Below, in pieces: positions 8,847-17,345 of a DNA stretch of 48,723 nt. The stretch comes from Wenzhouxiangella sp. 15190 (GTDB taxonomy: Bacteria; Pseudomonadota; Gammaproteobacteria; Xanthomonadales; Wenzhouxiangellaceae). A program made the translations under genes and the position numbers. Numbering within the stretch: the first letter of the stretch is position 1; each line of letters starts with the position of its first letter. The notes beneath the pieces are model-generated. The model was given only the letters and a program-made list of their open reading frames with translations. It had not been told where the DNA came from and did no database searches. The stretch is taken from the NCBI RefSeq assembly GCF_003417465.1, contig NZ_QVMV01000045.1, positions 1 through 48,723 on the forward strand. Direction: 5' to 3'.

Positions 8847-8877
8847 GCCCGGCGCGGACAGTCGCCGGGCTTCGTTT
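8847..8877 (+). terminator. intrinsic terminator after gyrB
   Basis: An 8-bp stem GCCCGGCG/CGCCGGGC (8847-8854 with 8863-8870) with an 8-base loop is followed by TTCGTTT. It begins 16 bp after the gyrB stop and would close the dnaA-dnaN-recF-gyrB block. Confidence 0.65.
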
Positions 8878-8883
8878 GAACGG

Positions 8884-8951
8884 CGAAATTCGAAATTCGA
8901 AGCACCAAATCTCAAACAAATTCGAATGACCGAAATTCGAATGATCCAAAC
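8884..8951. repeat. AATTCGAA-family dispersed repeat, copy 1
   Basis: AT-rich interspersed sequence with the ordered blocks AAATTCGAAGCACCAAA, CAAACAAATTCGAATGACC and GAAATTCGAATG. Related copies are at 17159-17345, 18893-18966 and 33543-33602. Pseudomonads have plsC between gyrB and gmhB; here the gap holds only this repeat and the terminator. Confidence 0.8.
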
Positions 8952-12619: not shown

Positions 12620-13375
12620 GTGACCCGCGACCGACTGCTTATCGTCAAGACCGGATCCGCCGCCATCGAGGCCCGACGGCGTTTCGGAGACTTCGAACGC
12701 TGGTTTGCCCGTGCCATCGGGCCGGATCGATTCGATTACGAAACGGTGGATGTCTCCGATCACGAGATCCTCCCGTCGCTCGAGACGGCCGGTGACTATG
12801 CCGGCGTCGTCGTGACCGGTTCGCCGGCCATGGTCTCCCACAGGCTGGACTGGTCCGAAAGGACCGCTCGCTGGCTGGCGGAGGTCATCGCCGACGATCG
12901 TCTGCCCGTGCTGGGTGTGTGCTATGGGCACCAGCTTATCGCCCATGCACTGGGTGGTCGTGTCGGCCCCAACCCGGACGGCCGCCGAATGGGCACTGAT
13001 CGGTTCAAGGTCGGGCAAGCCGACGACGGGCTGGTCGGCCCATTGGCGCCCGAAGCCCCGGTACAGGTCACGCATCTGGAAGTGGTACTCGATGCACCGC
13101 CGGGCGCGCGCGTGCTCGGCCGAACCGCAGTGGACGCCAACCATGCCTTGCACTTCGGTGGCCGAAGCTGGGGCGTGCAATTCCACCCGGAATTCGATGC
13201 GGTGATCATGCGATGCTATGTCGAGGCGCGCGCCGATTTGCTCGACGGGGAAGGCTTCGACAGCCGCGCCATTCTCGACAATGTCCGGGAGACGCGAGCC
13301 GGAATAAACGTGTTGCGGCGCTTTGCCGCAATTTGCGATGCAGACCGAGGTGGAGGAAATGGCGAAAGCCGCTGA
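12620..13375 (+). CDS. class I glutamine amidotransferase (GMP synthase-like)
   Basis: Stand-alone class I glutamine amidotransferase domain, 251 aa, GTG start at 12620. The catalytic Cys lies in VLGVCYGHQLIAHALGG and the His-x-Glu of the triad in WGVQFHPEFD. Such proteins hydrolyse gamma-glutamyl bonds, as in GuaA-like and PuuD-like families; the substrate here is unknown. It is the first gene of a tight plus-strand cluster and overlaps the downstream RNase gene by 17 bp. Purine metabolism is suggested by that context but not shown. Confidence 0.85.
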   Translation: MTRDRLLIVKTGSAAIEARRRFGDFERWFARAIGPDRFDYETVDVSDHEILPSLETAGDYAGVVVTGSPAMVSHRLDWSERTARWLAEVIADDRLPVLGVCYGHQLIAHALGGRVGPNPDGRRMGTDRFKVGQADDGLVGPLAPEAPVQVTHLEVVLDAPPGARVLGRTAVDANHALHFGGRSWGVQFHPEFDAVIMRCYVEARADLLDGEGFDSRAILDNVRETRAGINVLRRFAAICDADRGGGNGESR

Positions 13376-14732
13376 CAAGACAATCCGGTTTCTGGGTGCC
13401 GCTGGCACGGTCACCGGCTCGAAGTTCCTGCTGCGCTGCAAGCGCTCGCACTATCTGGTCGATTGCGGCCTGTTCCAGGGCTACAAGCAACTGCGCGCGC
13501 GTAACTGGCGATCGCTGCCGATCAAGCCTTCGCAGATCAAGCACGTCATCCTGACTCATGCGCATATCGACCATTCCGGCTGGCTTCCGGTACTCTGTCG
13601 CGAGGGCTTCGGCGGCAAGATTCTCGCCACGCCCGGTACCCGCGACCTGTGTCGCCACCTGTTGCCCGATAGCGGTTTCATCCAGGAAAAGGATGCCGAG
13701 GACGCCAATCGCCACGGCTGGACCAAGCATAAGCCGGCCAAACCGCTCTATACCAAGGCGGAAGCTGAAGCCTCACTGAAAAATTTCCGGGCGGTGCGTT
13801 TTCACGAGCCTTATCGGACCGATCACCTCGAGCTGCTTTTCAGGCATGCCGGCCACATCCCGGGTGCGGCGACCGCACAGATCGACATCGGCGGCACCCG
13901 CATCGTGTTCAGCGGCGACCTGGGCAACTACAACAGCGCCACGATGCCCGAACCCCGACCGGTAGCCGAAGCCGATTACCTGGTGGTCGAATCCACTTAC
14001 GGTGACCGGCGCCGTAATCAGGATGATCCGGAAACCGAAATCGCCCGCATCGTCAACGAAACGGTAAACCGCGGCGGCAGTGTGATCATTCCCGCCTTCG
14101 CCGTGGGGCGCACCCAGCTGTTGCTGCATCATCTCAACCGGCTGATTCAGTCCGCGCGAATTCCGACGCTTCCCGTCTACCTGGACAGCCCGCTGGCGAT
14201 CAACGCCACGGAAGTCTTTTCCAATCACCCCGACGATCACCGCCTCAGCGTGGCCGAGGCCGAGGCGGCCTGTTCGCTGCCCGAATACGTTCGCGACGTG
14301 GAGGGCTCCAAGGCCCTCGATCGCGACCCGCATCCCAAGATCATCATTGCCGGCAGCGGCATGGCGACCGGCGGTCGCGTCATCCATCACCTCAAGGTCT
14401 ATGCCCCGGACGAGCGCAACACCATCCTGTTCGCCGGTTACCAGGCCGGTGGCACCCGCGGCGCCAAGATGGTCGCCGGCGAGAAATCCGTGAAAATCCA
14501 CGGACAGTACTGGCCGGTCAAGGCGCAAGTCGAGAACCTCGACATGCTTTCGGCCCATGCCGATTGCGACGAAATCATGCGCTGGTTGTCGGGCTTCGAG
14601 AAGCCGCCGCGCAAGACATTCATCGTGCATGGGGAGTCGGCGGCGGCCGACACCTTGCGCCTGCGAATCGAGGAAGAGCTGGGTTGGGACTGCCTGGTGC
14701 CTGAACACGAATCGGAGCACGAACTGGCATGA
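13359..14732 (+). CDS. beta-CASP metallo-beta-lactamase RNase
   Basis: MBL-fold beta-CASP protein of the YSH1/CPSF73-like group, 457 aa. The metal site HAHIDHSG (motif 2) and later His/Asp residues (GHIPGAA, FSGDLGN) are intact. The beta-CASP motifs appear as VVESTYGDR (motif A), GSGMATGGRVIHH (motif B) and LSAHADCDEIMRWL with FIVHGE (motif C). The family cuts RNA as endo- or 5'-exonuclease. The start at 13359 (MAKAADK) sits just after GGAGG, which is very close; an ATG at 13338 is the alternative. The stop overlaps the next start by four bases. Confidence 0.9.
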   Translation: MAKAADKTIRFLGAAGTVTGSKFLLRCKRSHYLVDCGLFQGYKQLRARNWRSLPIKPSQIKHVILTHAHIDHSGWLPVLCREGFGGKILATPGTRDLCRHLLPDSGFIQEKDAEDANRHGWTKHKPAKPLYTKAEAEASLKNFRAVRFHEPYRTDHLELLFRHAGHIPGAATAQIDIGGTRIVFSGDLGNYNSATMPEPRPVAEADYLVVESTYGDRRRNQDDPETEIARIVNETVNRGGSVIIPAFAVGRTQLLLHHLNRLIQSARIPTLPVYLDSPLAINATEVFSNHPDDHRLSVAEAEAACSLPEYVRDVEGSKALDRDPHPKIIIAGSGMATGGRVIHHLKVYAPDERNTILFAGYQAGGTRGAKMVAGEKSVKIHGQYWPVKAQVENLDMLSAHADCDEIMRWLSGFEKPPRKTFIVHGESAAADTLRLRIEEELGWDCLVPEHESEHELA

Positions 14733-16252
14733 GGCCCCGGACCGATGCGGACGAGGGCAACAACCTGGTCGCGCGCAGGCTCGGACTGGATACCCACGAT
14801 GAACTCGTGGTCATCACGCGGCGCGACTGCCCGATCTGCCGCTCGGAAGGGTTTTCCGCACATGCACGGGTTCGCCTGAAGAACGGCCGGCGATCCATCA
14901 TCGCCACCCTCTACCAGGTGGATTCGACATTGCTCGGCCTCGACGAGCTGGGCCTGTCCGAGTCGGCCTGGAAACGTCTCGAGGCCGAAGAAGGCGATTT
15001 CGTACACATCGCCCACCCGCAACCCGTCGCTTCGTTGAGTGCCGTGCGCGGTCGCGTCTACGGCAAGCGTCTCGACCGGGCCCAGATGCACGCAGTCATC
15101 AATGACATTGCAGCCGGGCGCTACGCCGACGTTCACCTGGCCATGTTCCTGACCAGCGTGGCCGCCCGCGATCCCGACGACGACGAGCTTGCCGACATGA
15201 TTGCCGCCATGGTCGACGTCGGGGAACGACTCGAATGGTCTCGCGCCATCATCGTCGACAAACACTGTGTCGGCGGTCTGCCCGGCAACCGGACTACACC
15301 GCTGGTTGTCGCCATCGTCGCCGAACATGGCTTGTGGATGCCCAAGACCTCCTCGCGCGCGATCACTTCTCCATCCGGAACCGCCGATACGGTCGAGACA
15401 ATGACTCCTGTCGATCTCGATATCCGGATGCTCCGCGAGGTGGTCCAGAAGGAAGGCGGCTGCATGGCCTGGGGCGGCGCGATGCGGCTCAGTCCCGTCG
15501 ACGACACCCTGATTCGGGTCGAACGCCTGATGGATATCGACGCCGAAGGCCAGATGGTCGCCTCGGTTTTGTCCAAGAAGGTGGCGGCCGGGTCCACGCA
15601 TCTGGTGCTCGACGTGCCGGTGGGCGAGACAGCCAAGATCCGCTCTCAGGCCGACGCCGAGCGATTGGCCGCGCGGCTCGAAACCGTCGGCGAACGCTTC
15701 GGCATCAAGGTCCGGGTGTTGCTTACCGACGGCCGTCAGCCAGTGGGTCGTGGCATCGGGCCGGCGCTGGAAGCGCACGACGTGCTGGCGGTTCTGGCCA
15801 ACGCCGAGGAACAGCCGCGTGACCTGCGTGAACGGGCCGTTCTGCTTGCCGGTGCGCTGCTGGAGCTGGCCGGCGTGGCCGAGCAGGGACGGGGCGAGAT
15901 CATGGCCGAGGAAACCCTGGCCAGTGGCCGTGCGCGGGCACGATTCGAAGCCATCTGCCGGGCCCAGGGTGGCCTGAAACGCCCACCCCGGGCTGAATAC
16001 GAACACAAGATGCCCGCCAGGCACACCGGAGTGATCACCCGTTTTGACAACCGCAGACTGGCACAGGTCGCCAAGCTGGCCGGTGCGCCGGGTGCAGCCG
16101 CCGCGGGTGTGTTCATGCATGTGCGACTCGGCGATCGTGTTGAACACGGTCAGCCCCTCTATGCCATTCACGCCGAGTCGAACGGAGAGCTGTCCTATGC
16201 GCGCGAGTATGCCGAGCACAACGGCATCGTGACCATCTCGGCCAAGGCATGA
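14729..16252 (+). CDS. AMP phosphorylase / thymidine phosphorylase family protein
   Basis: Nucleoside/nucleotide phosphorylase, 507 aa, of the long archaeal-type class with about 80 extra N-terminal residues (including DCPIC), unlike DeoA of about 440 aa. Phosphate-site motifs are DKHCVGGLPGNRTT and KTSSRAITSPSGTADTVE. Archaeal homologues phosphorolyse NMPs to base plus ribose-1,5-bisphosphate. It overlaps its neighbours by four bases on both sides, between a beta-CASP RNase and a PRPP synthetase-like gene, which favours NMP salvage over thymidine catabolism. The substrate cannot be read from sequence alone. Confidence 0.88.
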   Translation: MRPRTDADEGNNLVARRLGLDTHDELVVITRRDCPICRSEGFSAHARVRLKNGRRSIIATLYQVDSTLLGLDELGLSESAWKRLEAEEGDFVHIAHPQPVASLSAVRGRVYGKRLDRAQMHAVINDIAAGRYADVHLAMFLTSVAARDPDDDELADMIAAMVDVGERLEWSRAIIVDKHCVGGLPGNRTTPLVVAIVAEHGLWMPKTSSRAITSPSGTADTVETMTPVDLDIRMLREVVQKEGGCMAWGGAMRLSPVDDTLIRVERLMDIDAEGQMVASVLSKKVAAGSTHLVLDVPVGETAKIRSQADAERLAARLETVGERFGIKVRVLLTDGRQPVGRGIGPALEAHDVLAVLANAEEQPRDLRERAVLLAGALLELAGVAEQGRGEIMAEETLASGRARARFEAICRAQGGLKRPPRAEYEHKMPARHTGVITRFDNRRLAQVAKLAGAPGAAAAGVFMHVRLGDRVEHGQPLYAIHAESNGELSYAREYAEHNGIVTISAKA

Positions 16253-17151
16253 AAGGTCGCGAGAAGGCACTGATCCTTCCCCTGCCTGGCAGCGATGATC
16301 TCGCGATCTCCCTGGCCGGGCGACTCGGCCTGGATCGCGGCGAGCTGGAGTGGCGCCGGTTTCCCGACGGCGAAAGCTACTTGAGGTTGCACGACGATCC
16401 GGCGGGCCGCGACATCGTCGTCGTCGCTCGCCTCGATCATCCCGACAGCATACTGGCCACCCTGCTTTTTGCCGCCGACCTGCTCCGGGAGATGGGCGCG
16501 CGAAGAATCGGGCTGGCCGCTCCCTACCTGCCCTACATGCGACAGGACATGCGGTTCAATCCCGGCGAGGCGGTGACCTCGAGATCCTTCGCGCGCCTGA
16601 TTTCGGCCGCGTTCGATTGGCTGGTCACGGTCGATCCACACCTGCACCGCTACGCCAGCCTGGATGAAATCTACTCCCTGGAATCCACGGTGGTCGAGGC
16701 CGCCCCCGCCCTGGCCGACTGGATAGCCGCCGAAGTCGAGGATCCGGTGCTGATCGGGCCCGACGGTGAAAGTGAGCAGTGGGTTTCGGCGGTAGCCGAA
16801 CTGCGCAAACTGCCCTGGCGAGTGTTTACCAAAAAGCGCCTCGGCGACCGGGATGTGGCCTTGCAGATGCCCGACCTGTCCGGCCTGGCCCGGCATACGC
16901 CGGTACTGGTCGACGACATCATTTCCTCGGGCACGACGATGGCCGCAGCGGGACGCCAACTGGTCCAGGCCGGATTCCGCGCACCCGTGGTCGTCGGCGT
17001 CCACGGCCTGTTCGGAGATTGCGCCCGCGAAACCCTGGCCGAAGCGGGGCTGAATCAGATCGTATGCACCAACAGCATTGATGTACCGGAGGGGGAGATT
17101 GATTTGAGCCCACTGCTGGCAGAAGGGGTTGGAGCGTGGTTGAAGGGGTAG
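16249..17151 (+). CDS. ribose-phosphate diphosphokinase (PRPP synthetase-like)
   Basis: PRPP synthetase family, 300 aa. The ATP/ribose-phosphate regions RRFPDGESYLRL, YLPYMRQDMRF and VTVDPHLHRYASL and the PRPP-binding loop VLVDDIISSGTTM are all intact. It makes phosphoribosyl pyrophosphate for nucleotide synthesis and salvage. It is a little shorter than E. coli Prs (315 aa) and diverged, so it is probably a second, specialised enzyme rather than the housekeeping Prs. The ATG overlaps the phosphorylase stop by four bases. It is the last gene of the four-gene cluster. Confidence 0.88.
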   Translation: MKGREKALILPLPGSDDLAISLAGRLGLDRGELEWRRFPDGESYLRLHDDPAGRDIVVVARLDHPDSILATLLFAADLLREMGARRIGLAAPYLPYMRQDMRFNPGEAVTSRSFARLISAAFDWLVTVDPHLHRYASLDEIYSLESTVVEAAPALADWIAAEVEDPVLIGPDGESEQWVSAVAELRKLPWRVFTKKRLGDRDVALQMPDLSGLARHTPVLVDDIISSGTTMAAAGRQLVQAGFRAPVVVGVHGLFGDCARETLAEAGLNQIVCTNSIDVPEGEIDLSPLLAEGVGAWLKG

Positions 17152-17158
17152 TGCCCTC

Positions 17159-17345
17159 AATCCCGCACAAAAAATTCGAAATCCGAAGCACCAAACCCGA
17201 AACAAATTCTAAAACCCAAATACGAAATGTGGCGAACTGAAATTCTTTGTTTTGAATTTCGAATTTCGTGCTTGTTTCGGATTTCGATATTCGGATTTCG
17301 GATTTGATTCAAGCTTGGTGCTTCGGATTTCGTATTTCGAAACAC
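17159..17345. repeat. AATTCGAA-family repeat, palindromic copy
   Basis: AT-rich island between convergent genes. The left part reads AATTCGAAATCCGAAGCACC and the right part gives the near-complement (GCTTGGTGCTTCGGATTTCG), so this copy is a large imperfect inverted repeat. Confidence 0.8.

Follow-up and report, generated by a model that had tools for sequence, protein, structure and literature searches.

The window analysed here is a 48,723-nucleotide stretch from the 3.1 Mb genome of Wenzhouxiangella sp. 15190, in which four plus-strand open reading frames (ORFs) lie end to end, all of them confirmed at the positions given in an earlier note on this DNA. The first encodes a class I glutamine amidotransferase (NF006562/PRK09065; 12620..13375, 251 residues from a GTG start) and the second a metallo-beta-lactamase (MBL)-fold beta-CASP/RMMBL protein whose closest solved relative is RNase TTHA0252 (13359..14732, 457 residues from an ATG; here called RNase). 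The third is a long-form enzyme of the nucleoside monophosphate (NMP) phosphorylase type, N-terminal domain included (TIGR02645/NF003338; 14729..16252, 507 residues; PHO), and the fourth a paralogue of phosphoribosyl pyrophosphate (PRPP) synthetase (PRS) (NF005537/PRK07199; 16249..17151, 300 residues; op-PRS). Consecutive ORFs overlap by 17, 4 and 4 bases, and both 4-base overlaps are ATGA stop/start sequences (14729..14732 between RNase and PHO, 16249..16252 between PHO and op-PRS). The 17-base figure assumes that RNase begins at the ATG at 13359; the in-frame starts at 13338 (ATG) and 13323 (TTG) would extend it to 38 and 53 bases, respectively.

A conserved trio of genes

We compared 135 loci, made up of the window, 54 loci from further genomes and 80 named loci. 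The named loci, taken as the top 80 of 581 matches, lean to close relatives, and the 135 loci contain duplicates, with 114 differing by more than 10% in PHO. Gene picking spanned about 9 kb around PHO, and within this distance a PRS is found at no fewer than 117 of the 135 loci and RNase at 89. The first count is a lower bound: L066 and L080, at the least, hold a PRS beside PHO that was overlooked in picking and recovered by hidden Markov model (HMM) search. Among the best 80 of the 581 matches the closest to PHO are from Wenzhouxiangella metagenome-assembled genomes (MAGs), and besides Pseudomonadota the trio of RNase, PHO and op-PRS also occurs in named Bacteroidota (Arenibacter, Gillisia) and in one Verrucomicrobia MAG. 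Distances between PHO sequences correlate with those between the accompanying PRS (0.82, 97 non-redundant loci) and RNase sequences (0.78, 70 non-redundant loci), compared with maxima of 0.08 and 0.21 in 30 shuffled controls each over the first 60 loci, and shared species descent contributes to both correlations.

An even draw of 397 Pseudomonadota genomes, with thresholds of E 1e-100 for PHO and E 1e-55 for op-PRS, returned PHO in 47 genomes, op-PRS in 44 and both in 42 (Fisher p 1.3e-48, kinship ignored). Where both are held, the two matches lie at most 171 bases apart in 41 of the 42 genomes, with G276 (4.4 kb) as the remaining case. PHO occurs without op-PRS in five genomes (G243, G247, G291, G365 and G375); in G247 the PHO, which lies beside RNase, is cut short and contains an in-frame TGA, and this genome is excluded from the 46 with an intact PHO. 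The conserved unit is the trio of beta-CASP RNase, PHO and op-PRS, a widespread module across many unrelated bacteria. The earlier note's grouping of an NMP-phosphorylase-type enzyme with an RNase-type protein and an enzyme linked to PRPP is borne out for the trio, which is not restricted to this lineage in the way that the amidotransferase is.

The RNase aligns with RNase TTHA0252 at E 3.3e-72 and carries the beta-CASP motifs (D, HxHxDH, H, D, A (E), B (H) and C (H)), with the metal-site residues present in 86-88 of 89 aligned rows and the motif-B histidines in 77-78 of 89. It shares these metal-site motifs with TTHA0252 and the CPSF73-like beta-CASP nucleases but differs from them in its genomic partner, and its RNase activity is predicted. 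Within the module the RNase might supply NMPs or short RNA, although we are rather doubtful that it feeds the other two enzymes. The protein also scores 380.8 bits against the type VII CRISPR Cas14 model (cut-off 800), and it could be misannotated as Cas14 where weak matches are carried over.

The phosphorylase and its fusion to PhnN

PHO scores 592.0 bits against TIGR02645 (cut-off 434.6) and 665.7 bits against NF003338 (cut-off 434). Its nearest solved structure by sequence is 4ga5, which we take to be the T. kodakarensis enzyme and which aligns with PHO residues 48-495 of 507 (E 3e-94); PHO is, over this span, a homologue of the archaeal AMP/NMP phosphorylase (T. kodakarensis TK0352; PDB 4ga4-4ga6). 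Within residues 206-218 (KTSSRAITSPSGT; 15344..15382) PHO has K206, T207, S209, A211, I212, T213 and S214 in common with the AMP phosphorylase of T. kodakarensis, with which it shares the stretch PKTSSRAIT; the thymidine phosphorylase of E. coli lacks all seven residues. Across 126 unfused PHO sequences, 100 columns are conserved at 95% or more, of which 41 match 4ga5 only, 3 E. coli thymidine phosphorylase only, 42 both and 14 neither, a count that includes columns gapped in a reference and uses one archaeal and two thymidine-phosphorylase-type sequences as references. The archaeal enzyme phosphorolyses AMP, CMP and UMP, according to the available text of PMC9700705. From its family, its residues and the fusion described below, PHO would be expected to convert NMP and Pi to free base and ribose-1,5-bisphosphate (R15P), and we regard R15P as quite probably its product.

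In bacteria R15P is known chiefly from the breakdown of phosphonates. The enzyme that acts on it there, the ribose 1,5-bisphosphate kinase PhnN, makes PRPP from R15P (PMC9700705, available text), and in G243, G291, G365 and G375 a PhnN domain (TIGR02322) stands in frame before PHO, all four scoring over the cut-off of 156 at 164-186 bits. Of the 46 genomes with an intact PHO, 42 hold op-PRS and the remaining four are these fusions. A second draw took 397 genomes from the order of G375 and gave 35 with a match to the fusion protein (E 1e-60), 8 of them shared with the first draw. Here op-PRS (E 1e-55) is present in none of the 13 PhnN-PHO genomes, which are spread over 6 families, and in 21 of the 22 genomes with unfused PHO only (20 over the family cut-off; the exception is G747), giving a Fisher p of 9.5e-9; without the 8 shared genomes the figures are 0 of 11 and 15 of 16 (p 9.2e-7), kinship being ignored in both cases. 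Two of the 13 fused genomes carry an unfused PHO as well: G553 has an RNase-PHO pair, with no PRS, about 4 kb away from its fusion, and G657 has such a pair with a PRS remnant behind it, an ORF of 120 residues covering only a part of PRS. Because both unfused PHO fall among PRS-bearing ones in a tree of 69 chosen rows, op-PRS was probably lost from these genomes when the fusion arrived or later. In total, PhnN is fused in frame to PHO at 15 loci; op-PRS belongs to a different protein family from PhnN. We read the fusion as marking R15P as the likely product of PHO and op-PRS as a candidate stand-in for PhnN.

The surroundings of the fusion may indicate where its PRPP goes. A NadC homologue adjoins the fusion in 9 of the 15 fused loci (L092-L095, L251, L252, L253, L255 and L259), and in the four loci from the even draw the fusion lies directly downstream of this gene, which scores as NadC in L092 and as QRPTase in L095 and is homologous in the other two. 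The L092 neighbour, the only one scanned with NCBIfam, reaches 313.3 bits against TIGR00078 (cut-off 198.4), while an identity as ModD was rejected, TIGR01334 falling under its cut-off there. Since a NadC-type enzyme is a user of PRPP, its position suggests that PRPP made at fusion loci goes to NAD synthesis. Fused PHO sequences differ at some conserved columns (for example, N at 249 and H at 254), and their base preference may differ from that of unfused ones. Other long open frames around PHO, such as that in L012, were considered as fusions and rejected, as they run across the RNase gene in a different frame and lack a PhnN match.

The PRPP synthetase paralogue and its possible reactions

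By score op-PRS is a member of its annotated family, with 371.9 bits against the ribose-phosphate diphosphokinase model NF005537 (cut-off 322), and it also passes the TIGR01251 cut-off. When 113 op-PRS rows were aligned with 29 of 30 canonical paralogues collected, a change was found at residues 172-178 (DGESEQW; 16762..16782), which we name the pyrophosphate (PP) loop on the assumption that it binds pyrophosphate. Here op-PRS reads GPDxESxQW where canonical enzymes read SPDxGGVxRAR, with E174 in 113, S175 in 111, Q177 in 108 and W178 in 112 of the 113 rows; the canonical D-x-G-G/A pattern, in which G occupies each position in 27 of 29 canonical rows, is replaced by D-x-E-S. Elsewhere op-PRS has DPHLHR where the paralogues have DLHADQ or similar. 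In a tree of 57 rows, thinned to every third op-PRS and every second canonical sequence, op-PRS falls together with two PRS from PHO-less genomes on one side of a branch (support 100/99); these two share GPDxES, and one of them also QW. The op-PRS loci L218 (genome G366) and L219 (genome G398) have neither a PHO nor an RNase homologue in the surrounding 18 kb.

A canonical PRPP synthetase is present over cut-off in all 47 PHO genomes. The earlier note had counted a PRPP synthetase among its four steps, and this part of it changes: since every one of the 47 genomes holds another PRS, and the PhnN-PHO genomes lack op-PRS, op-PRS is probably not an ordinary PRPP synthetase supplied with ribose-5-phosphate (R5P). 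We instead consider that the trio may be a bacterial module for NMP phosphorolysis in which PHO would deliver R15P and op-PRS has been recruited to it, a reading to which we give a probability of roughly one half. The gene order, fusion, alternation and residue changes can be observed directly, and from them we infer the reactions. We lean slightly towards R15P as the substrate of op-PRS, which would then most likely carry it to PRPP, as PhnN would in the fused version, so that the net reaction would be NMP + Pi + ATP -> base + PRPP + ADP; PRPP itself is a more tentative choice of product. At a little under even odds, op-PRS would found an enzyme family beyond the known PRPP synthetase reactions, acting on the C1 phosphate of R15P either to give PRPP, as a second and unrelated R15P kinase, or to pass the phosphate to ADP or AMP.

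Other potential users of R15P are sparse in these genomes. R15P isomerase (TIGR00511) is over its cut-off of 314.1 bits in none of the 47 PHO genomes, and an archaeal route through this isomerase and RuBisCO was rejected on that count; weaker matches of 139-190 bits in 23 of the 47, including the window's genome, are probably of the MtnA type. PhnN is over cut-off in 17 of the 47 (the 4 fusions, G247 and 12 of the 42 op-PRS genomes), in a search that scored at most 56 candidates per genome, and none in the window's genome reaches the 156 bits needed (best 50.4). In 30 of the 42 op-PRS genomes neither PhnN nor the isomerase is over cut-off, and we therefore know of no R15P user in them unless op-PRS is one. 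RuBisCO (PF00016) matches occur in 24 of the 47 PHO genomes, and the weak one in the window's genome (52.2 bits) is perhaps a RuBisCO-like protein. It lies (G000:C24:16448-17122) on the same contig as an R15P-isomerase-family match (65145-66029; 181.3 bits, below cut-off), and the two genes perhaps serve methionine salvage.

A number of observations weigh against the proposed R15P module. PHO falls below the archaeal AMP phosphorylase equivalog TIGR03327 (AMP_phos; 473.9 against 535 bits), only 18 of 43 evenly drawn loci have RNase close to PHO, and op-PRS occurs without PHO in G366 and G398 of the even draw. The PhnN counts carry the candidate limit given above. All 15 fused PHO lie on one side of a single branch (support 100/100 in the 69-row tree), so the fusion is one event and the alternation rests on few independent events. 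op-PRS has also been lost without a fusion: the PHO genomes of L115, L145, L168, L169, L186 and G747 have neither, as does the MAG G022, in which the PHO contig ends at that point, so that chance could also account for the losses in G553 and G657. Finally, the catalytic residues F38, D40, E42, R98, Q99, D100, H131, D172, K195, R197, D222, D223 and T230 are each retained in at least 110 of the 113 op-PRS rows. These include what we take to be the catalytic Lys/Arg pair (K195, 113 rows; R197, 111), the Mg-site His (H131, 113) and the R5P-loop aspartates (D222, 110; D223, 111). In addition, the remodelled PP loop fits poorly with the synthesis of a diphosphate.

Those retained residues would also be accommodated if op-PRS is an ordinary PRPP synthetase under different regulation (R5P + ATP -> PRPP + AMP), with PHO removing or recycling the AMP and R15P passing to an as yet unnamed enzyme or being hydrolysed. 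The family cut-offs that op-PRS passes agree with this, the by-product AMP would be a substrate for PHO, and the available text of the preprint PMC13252144 takes the retention of catalytic residues across the major PRPP synthetase classes to mean a preserved reaction. However, a plain supply of PRPP is already provided for by the canonical enzyme and leaves the absence of op-PRS where PhnN is fused unexplained; the altered PP loop, with E174 invariant, also speaks against this reading, and R15P would be without a known user in the 30 genomes noted above. We consider this the strongest competitor of the R15P module, albeit an unlikely one.

Decidedly less probable is a reversible transfer of one phosphate by op-PRS, R15P + ADP (or AMP) <-> R5P + ATP (or ADP), which together with PHO would interconvert NMP + Pi + ADP and base + R5P + ATP and save energy at low oxygen, the R5P passing to phosphoketolase and acetate kinase. 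The loss of the GG and the later Arg from the PP loop, in favour of E, S and W, would suit such a reaction. The PRS scaffold can moreover change what is transferred, given that the H130A variant of human PRS1 yields ADP in place of AMP at a similar kcat (84.1 against 89.0 per s; acceptor unidentified in the available text of PMC4363470); op-PRS itself retains the equivalent H131 in all 113 rows, which argues the other way, and its replacement by PhnN indicates PRPP rather than R5P. A divergent phosphoketolase is near PHO in 18 of the 135 loci and acetate kinase in 15, although the phosphoketolase is within 300 bases of PHO on the PHO strand in only 2 loci and its co-occurrence with PHO is weak (15 of 47 genomes against 54 of 350, p 0.012, kinship uncorrected). 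The one PHO-adjacent phosphoketolase scanned scores 130.9 bits (cut-off 962). With only 15 of the 47 PHO genomes holding one, and none found in the window's genome, phosphoketolase was rejected as a necessary partner.

The link to oxygen comes from Bradyrhizobium diazoefficiens, in which bll3117-bll3116-bll3115 is a predicted PHO-PRS-RNase operon (PMC9104804, PMC6515984; available text of both, as for what follows). In a fixK2 mutant bll3117 falls 6.6-fold and bll3115 30.6-fold, the phosphoketolase-acetate kinase genes are lowered too, and a box, ATGATCTGGGTCAA, is given at -74 (PMC9104804), while protein and transcript of all three genes are raised at 0.5% oxygen (PMC6515984). The table in PMC6515984 leaves the three genes unmarked as direct FixK2 targets, whereas PMC9104804 gives the box. 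The same box is also at -74 in L065. FNR/FixK boxes are, however, not enriched: 4 of 127 operons carry one, compared with 44 of 1573 control genes (p 0.78), and under relaxed criteria the counts are 10 and 76 (p 0.14). This led us to reject low-oxygen control as a general feature of the module, and the window has no such box. We therefore do not extend the regulation seen in Bradyrhizobium to the organism of the window.

A further alternative is that PHO is simply the enzyme that its NCBIfam name, 'thymidine phosphorylase', declares it to be, a thymidine or pyrimidine nucleoside phosphorylase in an ordinary nucleoside salvage neighbourhood. PHO does retain Ser279 and Lys283 as in thymidine phosphorylase, residues that we presume to contact the base. 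We nonetheless think this very unlikely, as PHO scores far below the cut-offs of the thymidine and pyrimidine nucleoside phosphorylase models TIGR02643 (148.6 against 570.7) and TIGR02644 (197.9 against 409.05), its distinguishing residues are those of AMP phosphorylase, and its relatives are fused to an R15P kinase. A second phosphorylase in the window's genome, moreover, carries thymidine-phosphorylase-type residues.

Genomic neighbourhood and relation to known pathways

The four-step RNA salvage pathway of the earlier note, in which the amidotransferase takes part, can draw on the tight overlaps in the window and on the upstream position of this gene in 14 of the 135 loci, but is hardly credible given that all 14 are Wenzhouxiangella or the same genus (the window, 9 same-genus genome loci and 4 named Wenzhouxiangella loci) and that the protein has no match (E 1e-8) among the ORFs of the remaining 121 loci. 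The amidotransferase scores 252.1 bits against NF006562 (cut-off 205) and 66.9 bits against PF00117. Its translation carries GVCYG and FHPEF, the nucleophile Cys and His/Glu motifs of class I glutamine amidotransferases. Among the collected loci it is a local passenger of one genus and not part of the conserved unit, and so of the earlier proposal the theme of RNA and nucleotide salvage stands, whereas the pathway of four steps does not.

Other recurrent neighbours of PHO are a heavy-metal P-type ATPase (35 of the 135 loci, in no case within 300 bases on the PHO strand), a MerR regulator (10 loci) and a universal stress protein (6 loci). The Bacteroidota trio operons L141, L143, L149, L153 and L159 encode an Mrr-type protein upstream, its ATP-cone match falling just short of the cut-off, and, downstream of op-PRS, a protein of about 216 residues without a Pfam match. 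In the window, two opposite-strand ORFs upstream of the four genes presumably correspond to glyQ and glyS, recognised by eye from their translations. An A+T-rich repeat with many TTCGGATTTCG units lies at 17170-17340, just after op-PRS, where it makes a 57-nt inverted repeat (79% complementary), and again at 8877-8901; the motif (at most 2 mismatches) has 8 copies in the window against 0.18 expected, and is possibly a dispersed repeat of this genome.

Our searches of the open-access literature, outside which most subscription papers fall, returned no characterisation of the trio and, in line with the earlier note, no described bacterial pathway joining these genes; the available text of PMC12999727 likewise contains nothing relevant. 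In B. diazoefficiens the same three families appear, but in the order PHO-PRS-RNase, and the available text of PMC9104804 and PMC6515984 lists the operon without a proposed pathway. The available text of PMC9700705 states, with reference to metagenomic studies, that some bacteria may use the NMP shunt, and mentions the archaeal gene set in uncultivated bacterial phyla, so the shunt, so far known chiefly from archaea, is not in itself new to bacteria. The archaeal shunt uses R15P isomerase, whereas in the PHO genomes studied here the partner is op-PRS or a fused PhnN. With the PRPP synthetases of classes I-III, and bacterial classes II and IV-XI of PMC13252144, op-PRS has its family and catalytic residues in common, but it differs in its PP loop, in its tie to PHO and in having a canonical enzyme alongside; that preprint sorts bacterial enzymes into new classes by sequence, and the words 'phosphorylase' and 'bisphosphate' are absent from its main text.

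Taken together, the module is best read as an altered version of the archaeal NMP shunt, with the reactions of PHO and op-PRS predicted from their sequences. If this is correct, the shunt in this altered form would extend to many cultured bacteria, and two database names would need correction, that of PHO and the 'ribose-phosphate diphosphokinase' of op-PRS, which may catalyse another reaction. The low-oxygen-induced operon of the soybean symbiont Bradyrhizobium would also gain a role. Should op-PRS act on R15P, NMPs and the central ribose phosphates would be joined by a route that costs one ATP to ADP, compared with two phosphate bonds classically, and that could run in either direction with the energy state of the cell.

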